DNA of 40,667 bases from an uncultured Bacilli bacterium. Its GTDB lineage: Bacteria > Bacillota_I > Bacilli_A > RF39 > UBA660. The notes beneath the pieces are model-generated. The model saw nothing but the letters and a program-made list of their open reading frames with translations, was not told the origin of the DNA and did not search any database. Shown one piece after another: positions 13,113 through 27,057 of the stretch; positions within the stretch are counted from its first letter, which is position 1, and each line of letters begins with the position of its first letter. The position numbers and the translations under genes are program-made. The DNA lies in the NCBI GenBank assembly GCA_944368805.1, contig CALVXC010000004.1, positions 1 through 40,667 of the forward strand, read 5' to 3'.

Positions 13113-13480
13113 AAAGTAATAGCTGGATCTTTAAGTTTTGCAGCAGGAGTAATGATAACTGTTTCTTTAACCGATTTAATTCCTGAATCATTTATGTTAG
13201 TTAGTAATAAATTTTTAAACTTTCCAGCTATTTTAATATGTTTGATCTTCTTTGTAATTGGTATTATATTATCAATGTTAATTGATTACTTTTTTCCAAA
13301 TGATGTAAATAATTTATCTAAATCAAATAAAAAATTGTTTAGAGTAGGAATTATTTCTATGTTAGCAATTATTTTACATAATATACCAGAAGGAATTGCT
13401 ACATTTATGACTTCTAATAATAATTTGGAACTAGGAACAACTTTAACAATAGCTATCGCATTGCATAATATACCAGAAGG
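13014..13480 (+). pseudogene. zupT: ZIP-family metal transporter, 5' part (split by the inserted element)
   Basis: The first 155 codons of a ZIP divalent-metal (zinc/iron) importer in the cytoplasmic membrane. Helix I (about 7-29), helix II with AAGVMITVSLTDLIPES, a third helix, a loop, then helix IV with ILHNIPEGIATF and helix V beginning ALHNIPEG, the paired metal-binding motifs. At HNIPEG the frame runs into foreign DNA (CYQNAM, stop at 13500-13502). The missing remainder lies in the same frame at 27050-27352. Rejoined at the shared CCAGAAGG, the product would be 253 aa, the usual ZupT length. As it stands the gene should be inactive unless the element excises. Confidence 0.92.
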
Positions 13481-13502
13481 TTGTTATCAAAATGCAATGT
13501 AA
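13472..13502 (+). other. Left attachment junction (attL) of the element
   Basis: Core ACCAGAAGG at 13472-13480, shared with 27049-27057, followed by the left arm TTGTTATCAAAATGCAATGT (13481-13500). The arm is an imperfect inverted copy of the right arm at 27027-27048, as expected for the two half-sites of a serine-integrase attP. Confidence 0.82.
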
Positions 13503-13650
13503 GATAAAGTATTGAAAAATAAAGAAATAAATATTATCTTGTTACTTAAATATGGATGAAAAATCTGTATTTTTTTATTATAAATAAAGGATTAATATTT
13601 ATTTTGTAATTTAAATTAATTATATGTCAAATAGAAAAGGGAATTAATAG

Positions 13651-14084
13651 ATGACAAATAATAATTTTACAAAAAGTACCATAAAAGTTGGTGCTTTTTA
13701 GTGATATTGGAGTACCAGAAAAATCATTTCAAAGATTAAAATAAGAAGAAATTATTAAAGATTACAAATTAGAATTTTTTTTCTGAGACAGATAAAAATG
13801 CAATAAAATCATTTTGTGCTATTCATAATGTAAGCGAAAAATTGAATTTAGGAAGTATTACAGATATTGAAAGGCTTAATTTACCATATTGTGATATATG
13901 GATAGGTGGTTTTCCATGTCAAGATATAAGTTGTGCTGGTAGAATGAAAGTATTGATTTTAAAAATTCTACTAGCTCTAGTTTAGGATGGGAAATGATAA
14001 GACTTTTAAAAGAAGTATTAGATAAAGGTGCCAATATGGCAAGAAGTTATGCGTCAAACAAAATGAAATTAGTTAAAGAAAAAT
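13651..14084 (+). pseudogene. Decayed DNA (cytosine-5) methyltransferase
   Basis: Reading across frames gives VGAFFSDIGVPEKSFQRLK, then EFFSETDKNAIKSFCAIHN, then DIWIGGFPCQDISCAG and SSLGWEMIRLLKEV. These correspond to motif I, the following acidic strand, motif IV with the catalytic Pro-Cys-Gln, and the helix before motif VI of Dcm-type enzymes. Stops and frameshifts break the frame several times. The target-recognition and C-terminal parts are absent, so it cannot be functional. Similar methyltransferases are common cargo of Firmicutes elements. The surrounding spacer 13503-13650 and 14085-14175 holds nothing else recognised. Confidence 0.75.
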
Positions 14085-14175
14085 AGGTTTAAGATTGTAA
14101 AGATTTTAAAAGCATAATAATATTAGATAATTAACAGTAAAGTTCCTAAATATGCTACATTTTTTAAAAAATATA

Positions 14176-14203
14176 TTGACAACATGAAAAAAAATGATAA
14201 AAT
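14176..14203 (+). promoter_or_regulatory. Likely promoter of the island operon
   Basis: TTGACA (14176-14181), 16-bp spacer, TAAAAT (14198-14203). It is the best sigma-A match upstream of the operon and would give a leader of about 150 nt before the leader ORF. A tiny open frame with a TTG start after an AGGAG (14232 onward, about 22 codons) lies inside this leader; I cannot say whether it is translated. Confidence 0.6.
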
Positions 14204-14356
14204 ATATTTTAATCAATTAATAGGAGACTTTTGATAATAAAAGACAGATGGAAATTATTTTTAGATAATGAAATTTATGTAATTGATTATTTTAATTAGT
14301 ATAAATATTAAAGTAATTAATTACTAAAAAAAAGTAGATAATTTTTGGAGGATGGT

Positions 14357-14470
14357 ATGAATAATTATATTATTAAATTAAAACAAATATTACAAATATT
14401 TTTGAATTACTTTGATTATTCATTAAAAAGTGAATTAGTATTCCCAAGATCATACGAGTGTGTCAATTAG
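14357..14470 (+). CDS. 37-aa leader peptide upstream of the island operon
   Basis: ATG at 14357 is preceded by ggaggatgg, a strong ribosome-binding site, and the frame stops at 14468-14470. The product begins MNNYIIKLKQILQIF and ends FPRSYECVN. I recognise no family. The last codons and the stop lie on the left arm and loop of an intrinsic terminator just before the GHMP kinase gene. Ribosome position should therefore decide whether the hairpin forms, the layout of translation-coupled attenuators. An alternative is a small peptide that is itself a precursor modified by the downstream enzymes; the single Cys near the C-terminus is compatible with this but no evidence requires it. Confidence 0.6.
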   Translation: MNNYIIKLKQILQIFLNYFDYSLKSELVFPRSYECVN

Positions 14471-14500
14471 AGCTTTTATTATCTTTTGACACACTTTTTT
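14458..14500 (+). terminator. Attenuator terminator before the GHMP kinase gene
   Basis: gtgtgtcaa (14458-14466) / ttgacacac (14486-14494), then T6 (14495-14500). The loop of 19 nt contains the stop codon of the leader ORF. The ribosome-binding site of the next gene (aaagga) follows 4 nt later, so unless read through, this hairpin blocks the operon. Confidence 0.8.
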
Positions 14501-14514
14501 AGAAAGGAAAAATA

Positions 14515-16224
14515 GTGAGAAAAATGAAAGAAGAAAAATTTCCAATTATTAAGGCTGGTTTTATATTTAATAAATTTAATAAATCAATTAAGCTTCCAGC
14601 AATATTAAGCAAAAAAGAAATTCAAATTGAATATCCATGTCGACTTGATGCAATGGCAATTAATCCAGCTGCAGTTTGTTATAATGATAGTATGATATTT
14701 ACGCCTGGTGAGGTTGTAGTTTCTTTAAAAAAATTTATAAAAGTAAAAATAACTGTAAATAGTGATAAAGGTGGGATATTAAATATTTCAGAAAATACAA
14801 AGAGAAAGGTTTTAGTAAAACATGCTTATTTGCTAATGTGTGATGCTTTAAATATTAATCCATCACTTAATATAGATGTAGATGATAATGAAATACCAAA
14901 ACATTGTGGCTTTGGCTCAAGTAGTTCAACTATATCAGCAGTTGCAGCTGCAATTAATGAGTTATACTCTTGCCCTATTAGGGATAGGGATTTAATTAAA
15001 TATTTAGCATCAAATCATGGCGAAGAAATTTCAGATAATGATAATGATAATTTAAAAGTAGTCCAATGTATTGGTGGAGGCGCAACAAATGGTTTAACCG
15101 AGGAAGGTATAATTATTATTGCTGGAAAATCTACAGCCATTGCAAAAATGAAATATGAGTCGGATGTATTAATTGCATTTCCAAACGATTTTGTACAAAA
15201 GGATGCAAAAGTTTTGATGGAATTAGAAGAAGAAAACTTATGGAAATTCAAAAAAACAGGCGATGAATATGCTGATAAAATTGCTTATAATTTATTACAT
15301 ACGGCATTACCAGGTATAGCTAATGGAAGTATAAAAGAATTGGCTGACGTTGTCTTTGATTATAGATTTAACATGGGAAGTAATGAAAATTGTTCTTTTG
15401 TTTATGATAGATTAATGCAAATAAGTGATAAAATAAGAAAACTTTATGAAGAAGGAAATTGTGAATTTTTGGCACTTTCTTCTGTTGGACCAGCATTTTT
15501 TACAATTGTTAAAGATGAAAATCAAAAGAAAGTATGTAAAGAACTAATGGAACAGTTAAATTTAAAAGTATTAGAATCATCAATTTGTAATACAAAGTAT
15601 ATTGTGAATTATTCAGAAGAATTTAATTGCTTTTGGGAAAAAGAGGAAACAGGGAAATCATTTAGAAGTCGCCCACCTTCAAAATATATAATTAATGAAA
15701 TCGATCAGTTAAACGTTAAAGATAATAAATGTATTGATATTGGCTGCGGTGGTGGTAGATATTCAAAATATTTAAAGGACAAGGGTGCAAATGTTTTATC
15801 GCTAGATAAATACCCTGAAATGTTTGATCATACAAGTAATATAAATTTTATTCAAGGTTTAATGACAGAAATCCCTGTTATGGATAATTCATATTATTTT
15901 GCATTATCAATTGGTGTCATTCATAATTCAGTTACTGAAGATGAATATGTGAATTCATTCAAAGAAATATATAGGATTCTTAAAAATGGTGGATATGCTT
16001 TGGTATCTACATTTACAAATGATGTTATTAGTAGTGATTTAATTAAAACAGGTAAAAATACATATGAAATTATTGATCGACAACCAATGGTATTATTTAG
16101 TAAAGAAAAAATAAATGAAATTTTATCAGGTATAGGTTTTAAATTGATTAAAATAGTTGATGAACATATAACTGATGTTGGAAGTGGAGAAAGATATGTT
16201 TATTCAATCCTTATTCAAAAATAA
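14515..16224 (+). CDS. GHMP-family small-molecule kinase fused to a SAM-dependent methyltransferase
   Basis: 569 aa, starting at GTG 14515 (aaagga 6 nt upstream; ATG at 14524 is the alternative). The N-terminal part (about 35-365) is a GHMP kinase: substrate-side EYPCRLDAMAINP, ATP-binding P-x3-GFGSSSST (about 128-139), and C-terminal SSVGPAFF (about 322-329). The C-terminal part (about 380-569) is a class I methyltransferase with motif I CIDIGCGGG (406-414), acidic motif LSLDKYPEM and FALSIGVIHNS. PduX L-threonine kinase and beta-RFAP synthase belong to the same superfamily, but I cannot tell which substrate applies. First structural gene of the operon; it overlaps the next by 29 nt. The fusion suggests successive phosphorylation and methylation of one intermediate. 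Confidence 0.82.
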   Translation: MRKMKEEKFPIIKAGFIFNKFNKSIKLPAILSKKEIQIEYPCRLDAMAINPAAVCYNDSMIFTPGEVVVSLKKFIKVKITVNSDKGGILNISENTKRKVLVKHAYLLMCDALNINPSLNIDVDDNEIPKHCGFGSSSSTISAVAAAINELYSCPIRDRDLIKYLASNHGEEISDNDNDNLKVVQCIGGGATNGLTEEGIIIIAGKSTAIAKMKYESDVLIAFPNDFVQKDAKVLMELEEENLWKFKKTGDEYADKIAYNLLHTALPGIANGSIKELADVVFDYRFNMGSNENCSFVYDRLMQISDKIRKLYEEGNCEFLALSSVGPAFFTIVKDENQKKVCKELMEQLNLKVLESSICNTKYIVNYSEEFNCFWEKEETGKSFRSRPPSKYIINEIDQLNVKDNKCIDIGCGGGRYSKYLKDKGANVLSLDKYPEMFDHTSNINFIQGLMTEIPVMDNSYYFALSIGVIHNSVTEDEYVNSFKEIYRILKNGGYALVSTFTNDVISSDLIKTGKNTYEIIDRQPMVLFSKEKINEILSGIGFKLIKIVDEHITDVGSGERYVYSILIQK

Positions 16225-17254
16225 AAATTATATTGTCTCTAAAAGAAATTATTTGAGTGATTACGCCATGATAGAATCAAATAAGATTGATATGACATTG
16301 TCTGGAAGGTATCTTAATAATTATGGAAATTTAAAAATTAATATAAAAAACTTTGATAAATATCCTTCACAAAAAGAAATAAGAGAACTAGAAAATCAAG
16401 TCAAGAAAGATTTAAACATTGATAGAGAAATATTATTTGGTGCGGGTGCTAATGGAATTTTACAAAATCTGGTAAAGATATTTTTCTTAAAAAAAGGTAA
16501 TCTTGTAACACCATTTTATACATTTAATCAAGTTGAATTTGCTGTTACTTCCTTTGGTAGCGAAACATACAGGGTCTATACTAATAACTATAAAATTGAT
16601 TTTTCAAAATTAAAAAAATCGATTAACAAAAAAACAAGAATGATATATATATGTAATCCAAACAATCCAACTGGAATATATGAAAAATGTGAAGATATAT
16701 TGCACTTTGTAAATGATGTGAATATTCCAGTAATAGTTGATGAATCAGGTATTGAGTTTACGGGCAAAAAAAGTTTGTTAAATTATTCTAATCTTCCAAA
16801 AAATTTATTTGTTGTAAAATCATTTTCTAAAGCGTATGGTCTTGCAAATTTTAGATTAGGCTACCTTGTGTGTGATAAAGAATTTAAACATAAATATATA
16901 GAAAATATTACAATCAATGAATTTTCTGGCTTGTCATGTATTATAGCTACTGAATTATTAAAAAAATATAAAGAAAATATATATCAAAATATATTGGAAA
17001 TAAAAAAAGAAAAAAAATTAATGATTGATGAATTAAATAAAATAGGTATCGAATGTATTTTAAGTCAATCAAATATTATAATGACAAAATCACATTTTAA
17101 TGTAAATTTTTTAGAATTATTACAGAAAAACGGAGTGTCTGTTGTCCCTGTATATGATGAAACTAATAATCTTCATATTAGGATTGCTATACAAGATGCA
17201 AAAACAAATAAAAAATTTATAAATGTTATAAAAAGAATAATGAATTGCAAATAA
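16196..17254 (+). CDS. PLP-dependent class I/II aminotransferase-fold enzyme (HisC/CobD-like)
   Basis: 352 aa from ATG 16196, chosen for gtggagaaag just upstream; an in-frame ATG at 16175 lacks one. Fold type I PLP enzyme: FGAGANGILQNLV (cofactor phosphate), CNPNNPTG (about 153-160), VDESGIEF (Asp for the pyridine nitrogen) and SFSKAYGLANFRLGY with the Schiff-base Lys near 212. Closest in feel to histidinol-phosphate aminotransferase and to threonine-phosphate decarboxylase CobD. Next to a GHMP kinase this recalls the PduX-CobD pair that makes aminopropanol phosphate, but no other cobalamin gene is present. Transamination or decarboxylation are both possible. It overlaps the preceding gene and lies 10 nt before the next. 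Confidence 0.87.
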   Translation: MFIQSLFKNKNYIVSKRNYLSDYAMIESNKIDMTLSGRYLNNYGNLKINIKNFDKYPSQKEIRELENQVKKDLNIDREILFGAGANGILQNLVKIFFLKKGNLVTPFYTFNQVEFAVTSFGSETYRVYTNNYKIDFSKLKKSINKKTRMIYICNPNNPTGIYEKCEDILHFVNDVNIPVIVDESGIEFTGKKSLLNYSNLPKNLFVVKSFSKAYGLANFRLGYLVCDKEFKHKYIENITINEFSGLSCIIATELLKKYKENIYQNILEIKKEKKLMIDELNKIGIECILSQSNIIMTKSHFNVNFLELLQKNGVSVVPVYDETNNLHIRIAIQDAKTNKKFINVIKRIMNCK

Positions 17255-17264
17255 GGAGGAAAAT

Positions 17265-18422
17265 ATGAAAATCTCATTAGCGACAAATTTTGATAATAAT
17301 CTTATAGATAAGATTAAAAAATACCCAGTTTATGAAGTTTATGGAAAATTGAAACATGATTATATTGGTGGTGGTAGACCAGACAATACATTATCTAATG
17401 TTGATAAAGAAAAGTTTGAAAACCATGTAAAAAAAATTAGAGAAGCTGGTATAAGATTTAACTATTTGTTAAATGGTAGTTGTTTAGCAAATGTTGAACA
17501 AGACCCTAATTGGCAATACCGATTTAAGGAATTTTTAATATATTTGAAAAACGTTGGAGTTAATGCTTTAACTATTACAAACCCTTATATTTTGATGTTT
17601 GTAAAAAAATATTTTAAAGATGATTTTAAAGTTAGAATTTCTACTTTTGCTTGTATTGATTCATATACTAAAGCAAAGTATTGGGAAGATTTAGGAGCAG
17701 ATTATTTATGCGTTGATTTTGTAAAAATTAATAGAGATTTTAAAACTTTAAAGTATATAGTTAAAAATTTGAAAAAATCACAAATAGAAATATTAGTAAC
17801 AAATAGTTGCTTGAAAAATTGCCCTATGATATATACACATACTAATGGATTATCTCATGCATCAAATCAAGATAAAAATGGAAAACTATATGAAGATTGG
17901 AGTTTGTTATATTGTCAGGAAAGGGAATTAGAAAATATTGAAGAATATATCAAATCTCCCTGGGTAAGACCAGAAGATATAAAATATTATGAAGATATAG
18001 GAATTGAACATTTTAAAATTACTGAAAGAGGATTTCCAACTGACGAATTAGTAAAAAGAGTAAAAGCATATGTTGATAGAAAATATGATGGAAATTTACT
18101 CGACTTAATACAAGGTCATGGTGTTGTGGCAAGCAAAAACCTAAATCTCGAGAAAAGACAGTTAAGTAATCGAAAAGAAATATATAAGGAAATAAAGAGG
18201 GTTAGAGGATTAGGGAGAACAAGAGACTGTGAAAGACATATTTATATTGATAATAATAAATTAGATAATTTTATAAAATTCTTTGTTGATAATAAATGTA
18301 CAGGAAATTGTAATTCGTGTGGATATTGTAACATGATAGCTCAAAAAGTAATTTATAAAAATGAAGAAGTATGCAGTTATTTACAAGAGTTATATAACAA
18401 ATATGATAATTTAAAAATGTAA
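17265..18422 (+). CDS. U32-family iron-sulfur protein (UbiU/TrhP/RlhA-like)
   Basis: 385 aa, with ribosome-binding site aaggagg. U32 proteins were named peptidases, but characterised members (UbiU/UbiV, RlhA, TrhP) are Fe-S proteins in hydroxylation of quinones or RNA. A TIM-barrel-like N-terminal part contains FNYLLNGSCLAN and RISTFACIDSYTKAKYWEDLGADYLCVDF. Cysteines that could hold a cluster lie in NSCLKNCPMIYTH (about 184-196), LYCQE (about 217) and near the C-terminus in CTGNCNSCGYC (about 346). There is no signal peptide. Placed after the PLP enzyme in a tight operon, it may hydroxylate or otherwise modify the pathway intermediate; that is inference. Confidence 0.82.
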   Translation: MKISLATNFDNNLIDKIKKYPVYEVYGKLKHDYIGGGRPDNTLSNVDKEKFENHVKKIREAGIRFNYLLNGSCLANVEQDPNWQYRFKEFLIYLKNVGVNALTITNPYILMFVKKYFKDDFKVRISTFACIDSYTKAKYWEDLGADYLCVDFVKINRDFKTLKYIVKNLKKSQIEILVTNSCLKNCPMIYTHTNGLSHASNQDKNGKLYEDWSLLYCQERELENIEEYIKSPWVRPEDIKYYEDIGIEHFKITERGFPTDELVKRVKAYVDRKYDGNLLDLIQGHGVVASKNLNLEKRQLSNRKEIYKEIKRVRGLGRTRDCERHIYIDNNKLDNFIKFFVDNKCTGNCNSCGYCNMIAQKVIYKNEEVCSYLQELYNKYDNLKM

Positions 18423-18485
18423 TTGTACGAAAAAGATACTTATTATAATTGTAATAGCAAATCCAAAAATAAGGCTGGTGAAAAA

Positions 18486-19643
18486 ATGAAAAAAATTTGT
18501 TTTGTTATTGGAAATAATTATTCAAACATATACGAAAGTTGTATGGAGTTTTTAAGCAGAAATTATCTAAATGATATGCTACTTTTAGATTTCGATAAAA
18601 CTTTAGAAAGAATACATTATAAAAGTAAAGTCAATATTGATTATAATAAATGGTATAATATTTTAAGTGAAAAAGAAAAATCTTTGTTATTTGAAAAAGT
18701 ATTAGAAGAAAGATTAAAAAGTAATGATGAAATAGATAATATTATAATTACTGGCTCATTAAATTATGATGAAATAATAAGAATTATTGAAAGGAATAAT
18801 ATACAAACTTTTAATATTATACTTGTTGATATTTCTAAAGAGTTATCATATCGAAATTATACTTATGATTTAAAAAGAAAAATATCTTATGAAGAGTTTG
18901 ATAAAATATTTGATATGAATAAAAGAAATGTTGAAAATTTAAAAACATTATTATATAAAAACAATTATTCATTTCCAACACATTATAGGAAAAATAACAA
19001 TGATAATTTGAATGATTACATATCTCGCTTTTTTGAAATGGAAACCCTAAATAGAACTGAGGAAATTTATAAATGGCCAATTATACCTAAATATAAAATA
19101 TTAGAGCATGACAAATATGGGCTTAGACCAGTACATATGATTTTGGGTAAACCAAAATTCCACTCAGGATTAGATATTACAACCGAAACAAATACAGAAG
19201 TAAAAGCTTCTATTTCCGGAGTTGTAACTTATGCTGGATATGACGAAAGAATTTTTACTGGTGAATCTAAATGGGATCAAAGATATGGAAATATGATAGA
19301 GATATTAGACAACTATGGAAGAAAACAGATATATGCTCATTTAAGAAGCATTTTAGTAAAAAAAGGTGAAATTATAAATGGAGGAGATTTAATTGGGTTA
19401 ACAGGATGTTCTGGTGGTGCAAGAGTGCCTCATTTACATTTTGAAATAAGAAAATATAATACAGAACATTCTGGAGAGAATAATACAATTAATCCATTGA
19501 TATTACTTCCACATCACAATTTTACTGAAGAAAGATTTACTGAAAAACCATATGATGAAGTTTGGGAGATGATGAGCCAAAACTCTTTTGGGGTAACAGA
19601 TAATGACATACCTTATGCAAAATGTAAAAAATATATAAGGTAG
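18486..19643 (+). CDS. Kinase-like domain fused to an M23/LytM metallopeptidase domain, no signal peptide
   Basis: 385 aa from ATG 18486 (ggtgaaaa upstream); a TTG at 18423 would only add a poor extension. The N-terminal half (about 1-180) looks like a small-molecule kinase of the P-loop class: hydrophobic first strand KICFVIGN, NIIITGSLN, NIILVDISKELSYRN and a Lys/Arg-rich lid. The Walker A GKS/T is absent (GNNYSNIYES). The C-terminal half (about 220-350) is an M23 domain with HSGLD (226-230), YAHL and HLHF (316-318), all zinc ligands kept. M23 enzymes normally act outside the cell on peptidoglycan; here no secretion signal is visible. Together with its place in the operon this suggests an intracellular, non-cell-wall role. 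Confidence 0.72.
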   Translation: MKKICFVIGNNYSNIYESCMEFLSRNYLNDMLLLDFDKTLERIHYKSKVNIDYNKWYNILSEKEKSLLFEKVLEERLKSNDEIDNIIITGSLNYDEIIRIIERNNIQTFNIILVDISKELSYRNYTYDLKRKISYEEFDKIFDMNKRNVENLKTLLYKNNYSFPTHYRKNNNDNLNDYISRFFEMETLNRTEEIYKWPIIPKYKILEHDKYGLRPVHMILGKPKFHSGLDITTETNTEVKASISGVVTYAGYDERIFTGESKWDQRYGNMIEILDNYGRKQIYAHLRSILVKKGEIINGGDLIGLTGCSGGARVPHLHFEIRKYNTEHSGENNTINPLILLPHHNFTEERFTEKPYDEVWEMMSQNSFGVTDNDIPYAKCKKYIR

Positions 19644-19764
19644 ATTTTATATAAAAATTTTTATCATAGTTACATGTATTGTAAATAGAAATAAAAGAAT
19701 GTGAGGTTAGTCTGAAAACAATTTAGTTTTCATTATTATGTGTGCCTTGAATGGAGTGAAAGGA

Positions 19765-20307
19765 ATGATTGTTAATATGAAAAAGATTATATTTTTAGAA
19801 GGATTACCTGGTGTGGGTAAAACAACTTTAATAAATGAAATAAGAAAGAAGAAACTTTCAAATATTTATATAGTGGATGAGATAATAAACGAAAACATTT
19901 TAAATAATATTAAGGTCAATGAACAAGAATTTTTATTAAATGATTTTATGAAAGTAAATAAATATAATGATGGAATAATTATCATAGATAGAGGCCCTAT
20001 AAGCACTCTTTCATATAGTGAGACTAAAAAGATAATGGATATTAATTTTGATTTAAGTAATTCTATAAATGAATTTCAAAAGTATATAAATATTTACAAA
20101 GATAGTAAAATAGTTTATTTGACAAACAAAGGAAAATCTTATTCGATTACAGTATCTAATACTAATAGTCCATATGGGACTATAGAAAATCAAAAATTAT
20201 TAGAAGAAATAAGCATATATAATTCAAAAAAATATTGTGAAAATACAATTGTTTTAGAATATTTTAAAAACGATATGGAGGCAGTTATAAATGAAATTAT
20301 TAATTAA
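19765..20307 (+). CDS. P-loop kinase, dTMP-kinase/AAA_33-like
   Basis: 180 aa if started at ATG 19765 (ggagtg about 9 nt upstream); ATG 19777 (MKKIIFLEG) is equally reasonable. Walker A GLPGVGKTT lies at the N-terminus and Walker B-like IIIIDRGPISTLSYSE near residue 80. A later SNTNSPYGTIENQKLLEEIS segment and a helical C-terminus fit nucleotide/nucleoside or antibiotic-type kinases. Unlike the kinase-like half of the preceding gene, the P-loop here is intact. It overlaps the glycosyltransferase start by 17 nt. The preceding gap of about 120 nt holds no terminator. The substrate is unknown. Confidence 0.75.
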   Translation: MIVNMKKIIFLEGLPGVGKTTLINEIRKKKLSNIYIVDEIINENILNNIKVNEQEFLLNDFMKVNKYNDGIIIIDRGPISTLSYSETKKIMDINFDLSNSINEFQKYINIYKDSKIVYLTNKGKSYSITVSNTNSPYGTIENQKLLEEISIYNSKKYCENTIVLEYFKNDMEAVINEIIN

Positions 20308-21550
20308 TTTATGTGCACAAGATGGAATCGTCAGTCATAATTCTGGTGTTGGCACAATGGTTAAAAGATACATTTATGTATTTACTAAATTATTAGAAGA
20401 AAAAAATATTGACTATAAAATTAATTTATTTACTCCTGAATATAATGTTGATGGTTTTGGTTATTCTAAGGAAACAAAAGAACATAATATTAATTTAAAA
20501 AATGTAGAAATATATGAATTATCAAATGGTACAAATGGAAAAAAGTTTTTTGGCTCAAAAGATAATTGGGAAATATTATCTAAAAATGTGGCAAATGTAA
20601 TTAATAATATTAATTTTAAAGAATATGATTATGTTCTTACTTTATTAAATGATACCCCTTTTGGAGGCGTTTTATCTTTTTCTCATAATAATGATAATCA
20701 TATAAAAGTGTGGATTCCTCATTCAACTGCCAAAATTCATATGGATAAAGAATTATGTACAAATGAAGAAGAAAAAACAAAAAGAATTAATTGGGAAAAT
20801 AATGCAACAAAGTTTATTAATGAAAATGATAATGCTTATATGGGGGTGGTAGGTGAATATATTAAAAATCATTTAATTAATGAATATAGTTTAAATAAAG
20901 AAAAAATTATTTCAATATTTAATGGTGAAATATTATCCATTCCTACTATATATGAAGAAAATTCTGAATGCAAGAATTTATATAACCAATTAGATAAAAG
21001 CAAAGATATATTATTATCTTTTGGCAGACCTGAAAAGTATAAAAATTTAGATGGTGCAATTAAGTTGTCTGAAAAATTAAATGTTCCATCAATAATTATT
21101 ACACAAGAATATTTTAAAGGTATGCCTTATGTTGATGAATTAAAAGTACTTTCCAAAAAAACTAATACTAATTTGTTTATAGATGTTCCATTTAATTTTC
21201 CACAATATATAATAAAACATTATCCAAAAAAAATTATATTACTTATTCCATCTAAAAAGGAAATAGCTGGTTTAGTAATAAATGAGATTAGAAAGATGAA
21301 TAAAAATAACATATTACTTGTAGCAAACAATATAGATGGTCTCAATGAACAAATAGAAGATACAAAAGATGGAATTCTTGTAAATATGGATAACTTAGAG
21401 GAATCAGCATTAAAAATAAAGGAATACTTTAATAGTAAAGATATTATCAGAATCAATAATAATTCACTTGTAACACTAAAAAATAAATATGATTTTGAAA
21501 AGATATGTAATAAATTTCTGAAAGAATTAATAGGTGATATGTATGAATAA
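20291..21550 (+). CDS. GT-B glycosyltransferase (GT4-like)
   Basis: 419 aa; ATG 20291 follows ggaggcag and overlaps the kinase gene end. The N-terminus LLINLCAQDGIVSHNSGVGTMVKRY is the Gly-containing acceptor loop of GT-B enzymes. The C-terminal domain has LLSFGRPEKYKNLDGAIKLSEKL (about 238-260), a typical GT4 donor-domain entry, and DGILVNMDNLEESALKIKEYF near the end. The usual E-x7-E is not clear: IPSKKEIAGLVINEIRKM occupies that position, with E at two places. Cytosolic, no membrane helix, which suits glycosylation of a soluble metabolite. It overlaps the next gene by 8 nt. Confidence 0.8.
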   Translation: MKLLINLCAQDGIVSHNSGVGTMVKRYIYVFTKLLEEKNIDYKINLFTPEYNVDGFGYSKETKEHNINLKNVEIYELSNGTNGKKFFGSKDNWEILSKNVANVINNINFKEYDYVLTLLNDTPFGGVLSFSHNNDNHIKVWIPHSTAKIHMDKELCTNEEEKTKRINWENNATKFINENDNAYMGVVGEYIKNHLINEYSLNKEKIISIFNGEILSIPTIYEENSECKNLYNQLDKSKDILLSFGRPEKYKNLDGAIKLSEKLNVPSIIITQEYFKGMPYVDELKVLSKKTNTNLFIDVPFNFPQYIIKHYPKKIILLIPSKKEIAGLVINEIRKMNKNNILLVANNIDGLNEQIEDTKDGILVNMDNLEESALKIKEYFNSKDIIRINNNSLVTLKNKYDFEKICNKFLKELIGDMYE

Positions 21551-22901
21551 ATTACTGCCTAAGATAGATAAATTAACACCTATTACTATTGATTCAAAAA
21601 CATTCTTTAATAGTCCTTTAAATAAAGATTTTCAGCTTTTGTCTTTTAAGGATAAATTGCAAGTATTGAATGATATTGTAAGGCAATCTATGATATATAC
21701 TGAAAATGTAAATCCATTAAATGATATTGATACATTAATTGGAGATGATTATACAGCAGCATTAGTAAGTATGAATTATTTAAAGGAATTAAATGTTGGT
21801 AGAAATTATAAAATCGTCTTTGCAAAAGGTACATCTTTTGATAATAATATTAGAGTAGTTTTATTTGTTGATGATGATAATAATAATACCTATCTATTTG
21901 ATGCAACGCCTAAAGTTCGTTATAAAGCTGGATATGTAGAATCAAATCAAGATATATATGAAGATTACATTATTATTGATGGAGAACTTGAAAAAATTTT
22001 TTTAAGATTAAGAGGTATTGATTTTCTATTAAATAGAAGTATATCTAATGATGATATAAATGAATATATTAGTTTTTTAAATTATGCACTTAAATACGAA
22101 GTATTAAGACCTTATATAAATAAACTGTATGATAAGATAAAAAGAACTTTGGGAGTTAGTACATTAAAATATGATTCAATGTTTAATAAAAATTGTAATT
22201 ATGATATAATAAAAATGTTAAAACAAGTTAAAATATGGAGTCAGGAATTAAAAGATTTAATCTCTAGCAATAAAGATTATAAAAGACAACTAGAATTAGC
22301 ACAAAATATAACTTACTTGCAAGATATTATTTCTGGTAAAAGTGCACCAATTTGCAATTTAGGCACTTATTATTCTATGTCTGAATTAACGCCAAGATTA
22401 TTTTTAGAAAATAATTTAACTCTTGTCATGATAAAACCTTCTGCATATATATTTAATTTTGAAAATGAAGTAAAGATGAGATTTTTGGAAGGAAAATATG
22501 ATGAGGTCGGAGAGTATTTTGGAAGTTTAGGAGAAAAAAATGACTTAGGGCTAATACCTATGAAATTATTTCATCCGCATGGATATAAATATGTTCGTGA
22601 AATGACAGGACCTACCGAAATATTTTTAGTAAATCGTTCAGCTGAAGAAGTTGGTATAATAAAAAAGAAATTAAGACAAGAATTTAAACAGAGAGTAAAA
22701 ACTAATGAAGTAATGTGGTTTGATAAAAAAACAATTCAATGGAATCCAATATGTTTAAATTTTGCACATTCATCTGATGATCCATGTGAAGCTTGTATGG
22801 GATATACTATGCTTTATCCAGAATATCAGGTAATGACAAGATTTATGTATCCCAATCCATTAATAATAGAGGAGGAAAAAAATGGAAGAATACGAATATA
22901 G
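21543..22901 (+). CDS. Two-part protein with a nucleoside-diphosphate-kinase-like C-terminal domain
   Basis: 452 aa from ATG 21543 (aggtgat 5 nt upstream); GTG 21534 is possible. Residues about 290-430 resemble NDK: LVMIKPSAY (family LVMIKPD), REMTGPTEIFLVN (family SGPVVAMV) and LNFAHSSDDPCEA (family NxIHGSDSxESA), with the catalytic His kept near 409 and the P-loop-like Lys near 298. The usual RGD/Arg residues are not obvious. The N-terminal part (about 35-150: GDDYTAALVSMNYLKELNVG, TYLFDATPKVRYKAGYV) has a transglutaminase-like look without the Cys; I do not recognise it with confidence. The stop overlaps the CYTH start by 20 nt. The NDK call is by eye from three motifs. Confidence 0.6.
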   Translation: MNKLLPKIDKLTPITIDSKTFFNSPLNKDFQLLSFKDKLQVLNDIVRQSMIYTENVNPLNDIDTLIGDDYTAALVSMNYLKELNVGRNYKIVFAKGTSFDNNIRVVLFVDDDNNNTYLFDATPKVRYKAGYVESNQDIYEDYIIIDGELEKIFLRLRGIDFLLNRSISNDDINEYISFLNYALKYEVLRPYINKLYDKIKRTLGVSTLKYDSMFNKNCNYDIIKMLKQVKIWSQELKDLISSNKDYKRQLELAQNITYLQDIISGKSAPICNLGTYYSMSELTPRLFLENNLTLVMIKPSAYIFNFENEVKMRFLEGKYDEVGEYFGSLGEKNDLGLIPMKLFHPHGYKYVREMTGPTEIFLVNRSAEEVGIIKKKLRQEFKQRVKTNEVMWFDKKTIQWNPICLNFAHSSDDPCEACMGYTMLYPEYQVMTRFMYPNPLIIEEEKNGRIRI

Positions 22902-23358
22902 TTTTAAGGTATCTAATTTAAAGCCTTATATTGAATATTGTGAAAACAATAATTATGAAAAAATAAGTGAAGTAACACAAAATAGAGTTGTTTATGAAAA
23001 TAAACATTCTGAACATATTATTGCAAGGATTACTACAAAGATAACAAATGATAAAAGAAATACTGTTTTTGATTGTAAAAATGTTAATAAAAAAGATCGA
23101 GATTTAAAAATATCTAGTGAATCAGTTCCAATGGAAGTTACAGAAAATAATGAAAAAAGTATTTATTCAATGTTAGAAGTTTTAGACTTTTATGAAGCAG
23201 CTAAAAATTATAGAACTAGATATGTATATAAGAAAAATGATGTAACTTTTGAAATAGATGATTATACAAAACCTAAAATGCAAGTAATTGGAATTGAAGG
23301 GAAAAAAAATAAAGTAGACAAAGTATATAATGAATTAAAAGAATTAATAGGTGAATAA
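22882..23358 (+). CDS. CYTH-domain protein (CyaB/ThTPase-like)
   Basis: 158 aa with a strong ggaggaaa site. CYTH proteins bind triphosphates and divalent metal in a beta tunnel; members hydrolyse triphosphate or make cAMP. The N-terminal EYEYSFKV approximates the ExExK signature. Alternating Lys/Arg strands (IIARITTKI, RNTVFDCKNVNKKDR, RTRYVYKKNDVTFEIDDY) and the FEIDDYTKPKMQVIGIEG ending are typical. In this operon a triphosphate-handling enzyme next to an NDK-like domain, a nucleotide-type kinase and a phosphatase points to nucleotide-like intermediates. The exact reaction is unknown. Confidence 0.8.
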   Translation: MEEYEYSFKVSNLKPYIEYCENNNYEKISEVTQNRVVYENKHSEHIIARITTKITNDKRNTVFDCKNVNKKDRDLKISSESVPMEVTENNEKSIYSMLEVLDFYEAAKNYRTRYVYKKNDVTFEIDDYTKPKMQVIGIEGKKNKVDKVYNELKELIGE

Positions 23359-23365
23359 TTTATAA

Positions 23366-23923
23366 ATGAAAATTGGTATTGATATTGATGATACTATAAC
23401 TAATACATGCGAATTTATGGAAGATTATATTTCTAGTTTCTTTAATATAAAAAAAGATTATTTAAAAAAGAATAATATTTATTATTTTAATTTACCTTTA
23501 GAATTTAAAGATAGAGAAAAAGATTTTTATCTATCTATATTTGAAAAACAAATATTAAATATTCCTATAAAAGAAAATGCAAAAAATATAATTAATAAAT
23601 TAAAAGAAGAGGGTAATAAAATAATCATAATTACTGCAAGAGAAAAAGATACATATATTGATCCCGTATTATCTACGAAAAGGCAACTTGAATCTTATGG
23701 AATAAGTTATGATAAAATATTATGTACAAAAGATAAAAGAAAAGCATGTATAGATGAAAAAATTGATATTTTTATTGATGATTCAATAAGAAATATTAAC
23801 AGTGTTAAAAATATAGTAAAACAAGTTTATTTATTTACAAACCCTTATAATAAAAAGATTTGTGTACCATTTGAAAGAGTTGATGATTGGATCCAAATTT
23901 ACAAATTGCTAAAAGAAAAATAG
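23366..23923 (+). CDS. HAD-superfamily 5'-nucleotidase-like phosphatase (NT5C type)
   Basis: 185 aa; ATG 23366 lies 7 nt after the CYTH stop with no clear ribosome-binding site, so reinitiation is likely. HAD motifs: I DIDDTITNT (nucleophile Asp near 6), II IIITAREKD (about 91), III Lys in the CTKDKRK region, and IV IFIDDSIRNI (about 138-147). The helical cap between motifs I and II is small, as in NT5C/YqfW-type nucleotidases. It probably removes a phosphate from a sugar or nucleotide intermediate late in the pathway, the counterpart of the kinases upstream. Confidence 0.83.
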   Translation: MKIGIDIDDTITNTCEFMEDYISSFFNIKKDYLKKNNIYYFNLPLEFKDREKDFYLSIFEKQILNIPIKENAKNIINKLKEEGNKIIIITAREKDTYIDPVLSTKRQLESYGISYDKILCTKDKRKACIDEKIDIFIDDSIRNINSVKNIVKQVYLFTNPYNKKICVPFERVDDWIQIYKLLKEK

Positions 23924-24202
23924 AACTGTTATAATAAATTACTAATACAAATAAAATCATTTAACTACAAAGAAATTAAAAACATTAGATGTAATTTATT
24001 TTAATCGTTTAAATTTAGGTCAATTTATAATCTTTTTAAAAAATTAGAAAATGCAGAATAAGAATATTTGCTTGAAACAATAAGATAACTAACTTTAAAA
24101 TTTTTGTTTAAAACAAATTAAACAAAAGAAAACAACAAAAAAACAAAAATTTTTCTGCGATTACGTGTGTGTTGAAGATTTACAAATACATGGTAGAAAG
24201 GG

Positions 24203-24715
24203 ATGGAATTTAATATGAAATTAAGTGATTTAGATTGTATAACAAAAAATGTTAATTTATCTGATTATCTAAAATTATATAAGTATGTTAAAGATAATAT
24301 GATTAATTCTAATTGGTTAGGCGATTTTACAAGAGAAGAAATAGAAGATTTGTTAAAAAAGAATGGGAAAATATGGCTTTATTATAATAATGATATTATA
24401 GTATGCTCTATGTTTATGCTTCCTTCTAGTAATAAATCATTAAATGAACATAATGTGTATCATAATGAAGATATAGTGGCATCTTTAGGACCTATTATGG
24501 TAAGCCCTGACTACATAGGAAACAAATTACAAATACAAATGATGCAAGAACTTGAAGAATATTGCAAAAAAAACAATTATAAATATATTTTTACTAAGGT
24601 GTCTAATGATAACAAGTATTCATTATCTAATATGCTTGAATTTGGATTTAAAATAATGGATGAGTATATAAATGAAAGAGGTAAAAATAGTACTCTTATT
24701 AAAGAAGTTGATTAA
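24203..24715 (+). CDS. GNAT-family N-acetyltransferase
   Basis: 170 aa at ATG 24203, or 166 aa at ATG 24215, which sits better behind agaaaggg. GNAT features: IWLYYNNDIIVCSMFMLP (strands 2-3), ASLGPIMVSPDYIGNKLQIQMMQELEEYC (strand 4 and the acetyl-CoA loop, with GNKLQ in place of RGxG), YIFTKVSNDNKYSLSNMLEFGFKI (strand 5 and the typical N-x-x-x-GF end). It is separated from the HAD gene by about 280 nt of spacer in which I see no gene or terminator. It may acetylate the product, for tailoring or self-protection. It is followed by the strong terminator that closes the operon. Confidence 0.8.
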   Translation: MEFNMKLSDLDCITKNVNLSDYLKLYKYVKDNMINSNWLGDFTREEIEDLLKKNGKIWLYYNNDIIVCSMFMLPSSNKSLNEHNVYHNEDIVASLGPIMVSPDYIGNKLQIQMMQELEEYCKKNNYKYIFTKVSNDNKYSLSNMLEFGFKIMDEYINERGKNSTLIKEVD

Positions 24716-24782
24716 TGAGATACGAATAAGTAGATTTGATAGATATAGTGAAATAAAATCAAAAAATCATCAATAATTATAG

Positions 24783-24810
24783 AAAAAAATAATCAGAAGA
24801 TTATTTTTTT
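24783..24810 (+). terminator. Terminator closing the island operon
   Basis: Perfect 12-bp stem aaaaaaataatc (24783-24794) / gattattttttt (24799-24810) with a 4-nt loop and a terminal T run. By symmetry it may work on both strands. Confidence 0.85.
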
Positions 24811-24829
24811 AATAAATTATCTATTGAAA

Positions 24830-25169
24830 ATTGTATTTTTTAGATAATTTAAAAATCGCTTCAGTAGAAATAAGAATTTTGCCAGTTTCATATGCGGAAT
24901 AATTAGATGAAAATATTTTTAGAAGATTATAAAAAGGATTAATAAGTGAAAATAAAATAAAAATATCAAGCATTAAGAAATTTCAAAATTCATCATTGAT
25001 AAAAGAAAATCAAGCTTATCTTCAAAGAAATTTAAATAATAGAAGTTATGGTAATTTATCAAAAGACTATTTAACATCAATATTATTAGCAATAACAACT
25101 TGTAATCAAAATAGAAATGGTTATCAAGTTATTTTAATTGGTAAGTTAGCATTTTCGATTGAATATTAA
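24830..25169 (+). pseudogene. Decayed ORF of unknown family
   Basis: One frame stays coding-like across this stretch apart from two in-frame TAA codons (one at 24930-24932). It reads IRILPVSYAE, stop, LDENIFRRL, stop, KGLISENKIKIS and later RSYGNLSKDYLTSILL, ending GKLAFSIEY at 25169. The last 78 codons are open. I recognise no family. It may be a remnant of an accessory gene of the element. The rest of 24716-25191 holds only the terminator. Confidence 0.35.
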
Positions 25170-25191
25170 TTTTTAAGAATACATATTTTTA

Positions 25192-25229
25192 ATTAGATAG
25201 TCTAAATAAAATTAGATAGTCTAAATAAA
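25192..25229 (+). promoter_or_regulatory. Two tandem 19-bp copies with an internal palindrome, operator candidate
   Basis: attagatagtctaaataaa occurs twice in direct tandem (25192-25210 and 25211-25229). Each copy contains the dyad TTAGA-TAG-TCTAA. It ends just before the aaaggggg ribosome-binding site of the 41-aa ORF that leads to the recombinase gene. A repressor or excision factor binding here would control the recombinase. No cognate regulator is visible in the element. Confidence 0.5.
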
Positions 25230-25243
25230 AAAGGGGGATTTTA

Positions 25244-25369
25244 ATGAATAAAGAAAAGGATTATAAGTTTAATATTTATTTTAAAGAAACTGGAGAACAA
25301 ATAGATAAATTAATAGTAGAATCCATCCTATGTTATTTAAAAAATAATATAGAGGGGCTGACAAATTAA
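25244..25369 (+). CDS. 41-aa small protein upstream of the serine recombinase
   Basis: ATG 25244 with a strong aaaggggg site; stop TAA 25367-25369. The product begins MNKEKDYKFNIYFKETGEQ and is an amphipathic, mixed-charge small protein. Short ORFs of this look often lie between regulatory genes and the large serine recombinase in Firmicutes elements. I do not know a function. It is 66 nt before the recombinase start and probably on the same transcript. Confidence 0.6.
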   Translation: MNKEKDYKFNIYFKETGEQIDKLIVESILCYLKNNIEGLTN

Positions 25370-25435
25370 TGCAATTATGGCATAATAAAAATGTAACAAG
25401 AAAATATTATATTTCCAATAGATTGGAGGTAAATT

Positions 25436-27040
25436 ATGTTTAATGGGGTAGGAAATATAATAAAAGTTTTTTATGTTGCAATTTATATAAGACTATCTAA
25501 AGAAGATGATAATTTAGGTGAAAGTGAGAGTATAGGAAATCAAAAGTTATTACTAACAAAGTATGTTGAAGAACAAGGCTATACATTAGTTGATATTTAT
25601 ATTGATGATGGTTATACAGGAACTAATTTTGATAGACCAGAATTTCAAAGAATGTTAAAAGATATTGAAAATGGTAAGGTTAATATGGTTATAACAAAAG
25701 ACTTATCGCGTCTTTCAAGAGATTATATTGGTACAGGTGAATATGTTGAAAAATGGTTTCCAGCACATGGTGTTAGGTATGTTGCATTAACTGATAATAT
25801 TGATACAATGATTGATTCAGCAAATAATGATATTGCACCTTTTAAGGCAATACTTAATGATATGTATGCAAAAGATTTATCAAAGAAAATAAGAACTGCA
25901 CTTCATACTATGCAATCTGCTGGGAAATGGGTCGGTGGCTGTGCACCATTTGGATATAAGGTTGATCCAGAAGATAAAAATCACTTGGTTATAAATGAAG
26001 ATGAACAGCCAATCGTTAAAAGAATATTTGATTTATTTTTAGTAGGTAAAAGAATCAATCAAATAAGAGATATATTCAACGAAGAAAAAGTACCAACATT
26101 TTCTGCTATGAGAAATAGGAATTTCAAAAGAAATGGGAATAATGGTGATATTTACGTTTTTTGGGGAAATAACACAATTAAAAAAATTTTACAAAATAGA
26201 TTATATACTGGAGATTTAATTCAAAATAAAAGAAGTAGATTAAGTTATAAATATCGTAAAATAGTTTATAATCCAAAAGAACAATGGATAATTGTAGAAA
26301 ATACTCATGAAGCAATAATTGATAAAGAATCTTTTGAAAAAGTCCAAAAAATGTTACCTTCTCAAAAAAAGCGAAATGATAAGAAATGTGAATATTTATT
26401 TGATGGACTTTTAAGATGCGCTGAATGTGGGCATAATATTAGTATTAGAGCAAGAGATAAACACGGAAAAGCATATACAGTATGTAACTTTTATAGAAGA
26501 TTTAAAAAAGAATATAGAACTTGCACTCCTCATGGTGGTAATTATGACAAATTAGAAAGCGGATTAATTAATGCTATTAAAAAAATTCTTATACAAGCAA
26601 ATATAACTGATGTAGTAAAAAAAGTTGCCAATGAATATGATGATAATTCCACCATAGAAGGAATTAAAAAGAATATAAATAAATTAGAAAAAGATATTGA
26701 GTTATTAAAAAATAGTTTAGATAGTACATACATTGATAAAGCTACTAAAAAAATTAGCGAAGAAATGTATAATAGAGTAGAGAAGAAAATAAATTGTGAT
26801 ATAGAAACAAAAGAAAAAAAACTTGCTGGAGCAAAGGAATATTTAAAAGAATTAGAAAGTAGTAAAACTGCTTCAAAAGATTTAAATAAAGTAGTAGAAG
26901 ATTTCTTATCATTAGAAAAACCAGATAGAAATTTAATGTTAAGATTAATTGAAAAAATAGATGTCCATGAAGATGGAAATGTAGACATACACTTCAACTT
27001 TAAAGAGTCGAATATTATTAAAGAAAGCTACATTACATAA
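25436..27040 (+). CDS. Large serine recombinase (TndX/TnpX-like integrase)
   Basis: 534 aa, ribosome-binding site ttggaggt. The N-terminal resolvase domain (about 10-150) has YIRLSKEDD with the nucleophile Ser near 21, ESESIGNQK and TKDLSRLSRDYIGTGEY. The recombinase domain (about 160-290) starts KWVGGCAPFGYKV. A zinc ribbon (LRCAECGH ... VCNF, about 330-355) and a coiled coil (about 400-480) follow, then a short C-terminal part with MLRLIEKIDVHEDG. The architecture is complete, so it is likely active. The 3' end overlaps the right attachment arm, which places the gene at the element edge as usual. It is the integrase that explains the zupT insertion. Confidence 0.95.
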   Translation: MFNGVGNIIKVFYVAIYIRLSKEDDNLGESESIGNQKLLLTKYVEEQGYTLVDIYIDDGYTGTNFDRPEFQRMLKDIENGKVNMVITKDLSRLSRDYIGTGEYVEKWFPAHGVRYVALTDNIDTMIDSANNDIAPFKAILNDMYAKDLSKKIRTALHTMQSAGKWVGGCAPFGYKVDPEDKNHLVINEDEQPIVKRIFDLFLVGKRINQIRDIFNEEKVPTFSAMRNRNFKRNGNNGDIYVFWGNNTIKKILQNRLYTGDLIQNKRSRLSYKYRKIVYNPKEQWIIVENTHEAIIDKESFEKVQKMLPSQKKRNDKKCEYLFDGLLRCAECGHNISIRARDKHGKAYTVCNFYRRFKKEYRTCTPHGGNYDKLESGLINAIKKILIQANITDVVKKVANEYDDNSTIEGIKKNINKLEKDIELLKNSLDSTYIDKATKKISEEMYNRVEKKINCDIETKEKKLAGAKEYLKELESSKTASKDLNKVVEDFLSLEKPDRNLMLRLIEKIDVHEDGNVDIHFNFKESNIIKESYIT

Positions 27041-27057
27041 TGATAGCAACCAGAAGG
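27027..27057 (+). other. Right attachment junction (attR) of the element
   Basis: Arm 27027-27048 (reverse complement begins TTGCTATCATTATGTAATG) followed by core ACCAGAAGG at 27049-27057. Aligned with the left arm TTGTTATCAAAATGCAATG, only a few positions differ. The arm includes the last codons of the recombinase gene. Confidence 0.82.

Follow-up and report, generated by a model that had tools for sequence, protein, structure and literature searches.

What might a compact operon of ten co-directional genes, carried on a mobile element by an uncultured gut bacterium, be making? This question is raised by the 40,667-nt stretch analysed here as a whole (hereafter the window; contig CALVXC010000004.1 of assembly GCA_944368805.1, Bacilli, RF39, UBA660), where ten open reading frames (ORFs) occupy positions 14515-24715. 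The initial annotation described a mobile, biosynthesis-like operon without recognised product and proposed a nucleotide-like or phosphorylated aminoglycoside-like small molecule. Our best explanation, to which we give slightly less than an even chance, is that the cluster makes a modified nucleotide-like compound, probably C-linked, via a route resembling that of ForT, the synthase of formycin biosynthesis. Considered separately, a nucleotide-like product is likely, and a C-nucleotide formed through a ForT-like step is about an even matter. The gene set, its conservation and mobility, the attenuator layout and the domain families are matters of direct observation.

All ten ORFs lie on the plus strand, with overlaps of 17-50 nt at the gene pairs 1/2, 5/6, 6/7 and 7/8, confirming the co-directional and often overlapping arrangement first described; at the pairs 2/3, 3/4 and 8/9 the genes are no more than 10 nt apart, 94 nt lie between genes 4 and 5, and gene 10 is set off from gene 9 by 279 nt. 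Families were assigned by Pfam and NCBIfam domain scans, which support GHMP_N with a class I methyltransferase, Aminotran_1_2 (HisC/CobD-like), Peptidase_U32, Peptidase_M23, a thymidylate-kinase-like P-loop protein, Glycos_transf_1, an NT5C-like HAD and GNAT. These families, originally read from motifs, stand, and those proposed for genes 7 (NDK-like) and 8 (CYTH) are weak.

Scanning genome contigs with gene 1 (14515..16224) retrieved eight loci (L005-L012) of 59-71% identity, hosted by metagenome-assembled genomes labelled Bacilli, Tenericutes, Clostridia or Clostridium, one of them from water-deer cecum. All eight keep the pyridoxal phosphate (PLP) enzyme, the U32 protein, a P-loop kinase that is a homologue of the N-terminal part of gene 4 (a partial sequence in L010, where it runs off the contig end) and a divergent HAM1, a nucleoside triphosphate (NTP) pyrophosphatase. 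At a further locus, L032 (genome G684, found by searching the family of G331), nine of the ten window genes are clustered with 36-63% identity and the HAD gene is missing; the GHMP-methyltransferase, PLP, U32, M23 fusion, GNAT, P-loop, glycosyltransferase and CYTH genes follow each other on a single strand, and the NDK-like gene adjoins them on the opposite strand. The first three of these genes are grouped in 10/10 loci (window, L032 and L005-L012). Two cluster variants exist, one with glycosyltransferase, NDK-like, thymidylate-kinase-like and GNAT genes (window, L032), the other bearing HAM1 (L005-L012), and the M23 domain is fused to a kinase domain in the window, L032, L005 and L007, encoded separately in L006 and absent from the other loci. 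Gene 1 was detected in the window genome alone in a phylum sample of 392, and in 2/195, 2/147 and 1/144 within the carriers' families, counts that include the carriers used for choosing these families; the cluster is rare and patchy. The search for co-occurrence suggested by the initial annotation therefore returned nine genes at one locus and the core at eight others, ruling out an accidental assembly. Likewise, the claim that no described pathway has this gene set held in the libraries searched, where the set is not assigned to any known product; the literature part, an open-access library, yielded no paper on it. The cluster is real, conserved and mobile, and without a described counterpart within what was searched.

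Gene 1 encodes a GHMP-fold domain, which is either like ForT and beta-RFAP synthase or a kinase, joined to an S-adenosylmethionine (SAM)-dependent methyltransferase. It had been labelled a GHMP kinase; the fold and the fusion are borne out, and kinase function is doubtful, as synthases of C-ribosides that depend on 5-phosphoribosyl 1-pyrophosphate (PRPP), namely ForT and beta-RFAP synthase, match at least as well. The GHMP half may thus not be a kinase. The NCBIfam beta-RFAP synthase profile matches 9/9 gene-1 members (best E 7e-9; residues 67-361 in the window copy). With hhalign, the gene-1 family aligns to beta-RFAP synthase comparison proteins (L036-L040, retrieved with a family-like probe sequence, among them L039, a genuine homologue of ForT with a phmmer E of 1e-86 against 6YQQ) with Prob 95.1 and E 3e-8 over 270 columns, motif 1 included. 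ForT contacts PRPP through Arg19, His99, Thr106, Arg135, Ser139 and Ser142, of which Arg19, Thr106 and Arg135 are essential for its binding, and Thr138 helps catalysis (PMC8183095, PMC9832568). In RFAP synthase, His98, matching ForT His99, is a predicted PRPP contact, and in the family's groups 2 and 3 the second phosphate motif is missing (PMC6787355). At the sites aligned with ForT Arg19, His99, Thr106, Thr138 and Ser142, the gene-1 family has Arg43, His130, Ser137, Thr191 and Thr195, all invariant. Motif 1 thus keeps its arginine (PCRLDA versus PARLSF), the PxHxG[LF]GS pyrophosphate loop is present with its histidine (IPKHCGFGSSSST), and the invariant motif 3, SSxGP (SSVGP), fits SSWGP of beta-RFAP synthases, not GSGP of kinases. 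The 5'-phosphate motif region, GGATNGLT, keeps both threonines and lacks the arginine; position 192 is N, S or G, and the alignment over 165-195 is not unique.

Other comparisons of gene 1 weigh partly against a ForT-like function. ForT Arg135 is not conserved and aligns with glycine, so that membership in the ForT/beta-RFAP synthase family is unproven; only 37 columns align when the ForT homologue is compared as a single sequence, and the scores fall under both curated family cut-offs (33 bits versus 328 for NF040726, 22 versus 113.5 for TIGR00144). In local HMM matching, homoserine kinase comes first (E 4e-12), with a better E than beta-RFAP synthase. A homoserine kinase profile of ten sequences (nine homoserine kinases plus E. 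coli ThrB) gives an hhalign Prob of 93.2 and E 2.9e-7 over 201 columns, motif 1 not being covered, and in global mode the two families come out about equal. Structure prediction had been suggested for all ten proteins. The AlphaFold model of gene 1 (pLDDT 81) has ForT as its top Foldseek match in PDB (E 2.1e-13), followed within a factor of 2 by mevalonate kinase (E 3.1e-13) and then by homoserine kinase (2e-12), so the modelled fold alone does not decide between the two functions; the model of gene 7, built from two sequences, was too poor for use (mean pLDDT 51). The glycine-rich phosphate loop PxxxGxGSS of GHMP kinases is present, and kinase motifs 1 and 3 are not, motif 1 lying outside the hhalign match and SSVGP standing where SGSGP is expected. 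From these sequence motifs we consider it somewhat more likely that gene 1 works like ForT than like a kinase, and we do not read this as family membership.

The gene 2 product (16175..17254) is a HisC/CobD-like PLP enzyme with an invariant Lys219, scoring 162 bits with the HisC profile and 123 bits with that of CobD. Gene 3 (17265..18422) encodes a U32 domain (Pfam E 7e-6) with seven cysteines, invariant in eight sequences, that fall in two groups: C182, C186 and C217, and the C-terminal CX3CX2CX2C (C345, C349, C352, C355). Among characterised U32 relatives, some hydroxylate tRNA uridine in a prephenate-linked reaction (PMC6599085), and others hydroxylate precursors of ubiquinone, for which they need no O2 (PMC6747719); gene 3 would be a putative hydroxylase. 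The U32 domain and conserved cysteines are shared with TrhP, RlhA and UbiU/V; unlike these, gene 3 represents a separate subfamily distinguished by its C-terminal motif, and only one other match (27% identical) came from the phylum sample. Three Clostridia loci (L020-L022) carry a distinct U32 subfamily in a housekeeping-like context, with a PfkB-like kinase and a HAD phosphatase as neighbours and a second, shorter U32-like ORF following the gene. At L023:3741-10180, read by eye, another U32 gene has as neighbours an ORF resembling helix-hairpin-helix glycosylases and a fusion of a guanylate-kinase-like part with a methyltransferase, a P-loop/deaminase protein being close by; the lead towards DNA or RNA modification offered by such neighbours at L004 and L023 was set aside, the U32 protein there being a distant cousin.

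Gene 4 (18423..19643) combines a degenerate P-loop-kinase-like domain with an M23 metallopeptidase domain. The fusion had been noticed at the outset; its kinase-like half no longer has an intact Walker A motif, GNNYSNIYE standing in place of GPHxxGKTY in the window and GPDGVGKYE in L032. Gene 5 (19738..20307) is a thymidylate-kinase-like P-loop kinase with an intact GLPGVGKT, and G(P/H)HxxGKT is the usual sequence of the gene-4-type domain in loci without gene 5. As a rule, each complete cluster has a single intact P-loop kinase, with L008 (GHRGCGKNY) as an exception. Because the Walker A motif of gene 4 is broken where a separate gene 5 exists, it looks as if one kinase has been replaced by another at a conserved step. 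As homologues begin there, the true starts likely lie about 63 nt (gene 4, ~18486) and 39 nt (gene 5, ~19777) downstream of the ORF starts.

Downstream, gene 6 (20291..21550) encodes a GT-B glycosyltransferase and gene 7 (21534..22901) a protein without Pfam or NCBIfam match, with a transglutaminase-like-fold N-terminal and an NDK-like C-terminal domain, as judged from motifs and a weak profile match. Its C-terminus has MIKPSAY and NxxHxSD in the order found in NDK, and hhalign with E. coli Ndk covers 122 columns including IKP and NxxHxSD (Prob 3%, E 0.014). The N-terminus in L032 shows a Cys-His-Asp pattern like that of the transglutaminase-like fold (GNCQTAA, THAAVLVDD, DATP), whose Cys and His have been lost in the window copy. 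The CYTH-like gene 8 (22882..23358) matches cyaB weakly (E 0.079), and its homologue in L005 (13214-13705; 48% identical) adjoins a second protein matching cyaB, the class IV adenylate cyclase (E 2e-12). Gene 9 (23366..23923), not found in L032, encodes an NT5C-like HAD phosphatase resembling 5'-nucleotidases (Pfam NT5C E 8e-10), and gene 10 (24203..24715) a GNAT acetyltransferase that is accessory, being found in the window and within the L032 cluster only.

In the other variant, the HAM1 protein of the eight relatives is 28-30% identical to RdgB and keeps the SDSGL catalytic region. All copies aligned lack the ISHRGQAL stretch of RdgB, whose SHR we take to be the base-recognition residues, and this loss suggests an unusual base. 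PDB relatives in the same superfamily include KomB (8zsg, E 4e-20), a component of the Kongming anti-phage system; HAM1, unlike RdgB and KomB in having lost SHR, is absent from both the window element and L032, and the window genome carries a distant housekeeping copy only. Near a contig end at L056:178-831 (G333:C41) lies a second copy of the cluster HAM1, 98% identical to the one carried by that genome. Between HAM1 and the CYTH gene, L005:9260-13156 holds GrpB, NUDIX, PgeF-like and Mur-ligase genes.

The predicted mobility is borne out and sharpened: the operon resides in a 13,577-bp serine-recombinase element (13473..27049) that splits a ZIP transporter gene and is delimited by 9-bp direct repeats, ACCAGAAGG, at 13472-13480 and 27049-27057, the element ends being similar and inverted. 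Excision in silico and joining of the flanks restores the frame of a 253-aa ZIP ORF, whose product matches Pfam Zip with E 3e-30. A large serine recombinase with Resolvase, Recombinase and Zn_ribbon_recom domains is encoded at the right end (25436..27040, plus strand), and the left end, read by eye, resembles a decayed DNA cytosine methyltransferase (13690-14050). A viral origin was rejected, as scans of viral contigs gave no homologue and gene 7 none among phages; neither did genes 1, 3 and 7 match any plasmid. Gene 6 matched distant Agrobacterium/Rhizobium glycosyltransferases of plasmids, in unrelated clusters.

A leader ORF of 37 aa (14357..14470, plus strand) with a GGAGG Shine-Dalgarno sequence precedes gene 1 and ends inside a terminator-like hairpin followed by a T-run (14456..14500, plus strand; -15.9 kcal/mol, z -5.7), directly before the ribosome-binding site of gene 1. 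Equivalent hairpins of differing stem sequence occur before gene 1 in L005 (z -4.5) and L007 (z -3.9), as do leader ORFs with ribosome-binding sites (L005, 2624-2719; L007, 9854-9940), and in all three loci the leader stop codon falls at the 5' arm of the hairpin. This layout is not present at L032, and an Rfam scan of the element gave no match. A ribosome held at the leader stop codon would cover the 5' arm, so that transcription would read through into the operon.

The closest described systems are the formycin and pyrazofurin pathways (ForT/PyfQ), which share with this cluster a GHMP-fold enzyme as the likely PRPP coupling step, an expected nucleotide-type product and accompanying nucleotide-handling enzymes. 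They differ in that the cluster lacks Arg135 in gene 1, has a fused methyltransferase, adds U32, HisC/CobD-like, M23-kinase, glycosyltransferase and CYTH proteins, and belongs to gut Bacillota instead of Streptomyces; hydrazine-forming/pyrazole genes and PurC/PurH-like ring-building genes are missing among the ten genes and the core neighbours. To our knowledge, the described ForT-type C-nucleoside pathways are all actinobacterial. This actinobacterial group has been reviewed (PMC8724604). On the mobilizable rhizobial plasmid MesoLjLa4 of Mesorhizobium (L042:14986-22000), a genuine homologue of ForT (E 1e-86 against 6YQQ) lies near 8-oxo-dGTP diphosphatase, PurC-like and PurH genes, in what looks to be a cluster of the formycin type. 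With beta-RFAP synthase of methanopterin biosynthesis, gene 1 shares a full-length profile match and the PxHxGxGS and SSxGP motifs; it differs by its score, an altered RGxTSG phosphate motif and the absence of methanopterin genes around it.

We infer the reactions, the product and its use as follows. The HisC/CobD-like enzyme and the U32 Fe-S protein would, independently of O2, prepare an aromatic or heteroaromatic acid or decorate it, and the GHMP-fold domain would join this acid to the ribose 5-phosphate of PRPP in a ForT-like manner, with loss of pyrophosphate (and CO2), the fused methyltransferase then methylating the coupling product. Phosphorylation would be raised by a nucleoside monophosphate (NMP)-kinase-like P-loop enzyme, which is gene 5 in the window and either the gene-4 domain or a free-standing kinase at other loci, and, in the window variant, further by the NDK-like protein; NT5C-like HAD or, in the other variant, HAM1 would lower it for maturation or self-protection. 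The glycosyltransferase, GNAT, CYTH and M23 proteins would serve tailoring or handling steps, and the attenuator would switch the operon. The nucleotide product is proposed because NMP-kinase-like, NDK-like, NT5C-like and HAM1 proteins accompany gene 1, and this part of the initial proposal gains from the co-occurrence data and from HAM1 in eight relatives. Set against it are the weak NDK and CYTH assignments, the M23, glycosyltransferase and GNAT proteins, which a nucleotide pathway does not explain, and the absence of an aromatic-acid precursor pathway from the element.

If the GHMP domain were instead a true small-molecule kinase, a PduX/CobD logic would apply, in which a hydroxylated amino acid is phosphorylated, decarboxylated to an amino-alcohol phosphate and then methylated, glycosylated and acetylated to an aminoglycoside-, phospholipid- or cofactor-like product. 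We regard this as rather unlikely. The homoserine kinase matches (local E 4e-12, hhalign Prob 93), the GHMP fold and glycine-rich loop shared with homoserine and mevalonate kinases, and a PLP enzyme matching CobD as well as HisC speak for it, and the invariant Glu170/171 could, depending on the alignment, occupy the kinase Mg site; however, the match does not reach motif 1, motif 2 reads PKHCGFGS with a histidine and not PxGxGLGSS, motif 3 is SSxGP and not GSGP, and HAM1, NDK-like and NT5C-like partners would be left unexplained. An aminoglycoside-like product and its acetylation step, as originally considered, find little support, the GNAT being accessory.

It is improbable that the cluster is an anti-phage device, in which an intracellular modified NTP poisons phage polymerases in a viperin-like manner, or a Kongming-like nucleotide signal is made, and not a secreted antibiotic. 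A mobile element without exporter, nucleotide kinases, patchy distribution and the KomB kinship of HAM1 would fit; on the other side, PADLOC found no convincing defence protein (the methyltransferase half of gene 1 matches mads_2, E 3e-14, as methyltransferases do, the rest being weak P-loop matches), neither a KomA deaminase nor a KomC effector stands beside HAM1 among the neighbours at the eight loci or in the PADLOC scan, no killing effector is encoded, glycosyltransferase, M23 and GNAT are unusual for defence, and the viral contigs tested hold no homologue. Very unlikely, finally, is a role in RNA modification or cofactor synthesis, where the genes would not make a toxin and would build or attach a modified nucleoside serving a cofactor or the RNA of the cell itself: the tRNA- and ubiquinone-hydroxylating relatives of U32 (PMC6599085, PMC6747719) and the role of beta-RFAP synthase in methanopterin biosynthesis (PMC6787355) are in its favour, and it is countered by the rarity of the cluster even inside families, its location on a recombinase element and the lack of an RNA-binding domain in the gene set.

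Returning to the ForT-like route, an unlikely but more specific version may be formulated: a mobile and hitherto undescribed C-nucleotide pathway of gut Bacillota, its expression gated by leader-peptide attenuation, in which a HisC-like enzyme and an O2-independent oxygenase of the U32 family supply a ForT-like synthase-methyltransferase, and an intracellular triphosphate analogue hits polymerases, with HAM1/NT5C-like and possibly GreA-like immunity. GreA-like proteins with an invariant GDxWHDNFxF tip are encoded beside the cluster at several loci (L005:2071-2592, L007:9294-9830, L008:13409-13891, L011:7674-8225). A GreA-like paralogue stands elsewhere in the window genome (G000:C53) and in other genomes, which weakens the idea of dedicated immunity or of RNA polymerase as target.

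The gene-1 fusion together with its PLP and U32 partners provides a clear signature for genome mining. If the proposed route is true, nucleotide-analogue chemistry would extend to uncultured gut bacteria through an O2-independent route, and the use of such nucleotides by gut bacteria against rivals or phages would become testable.

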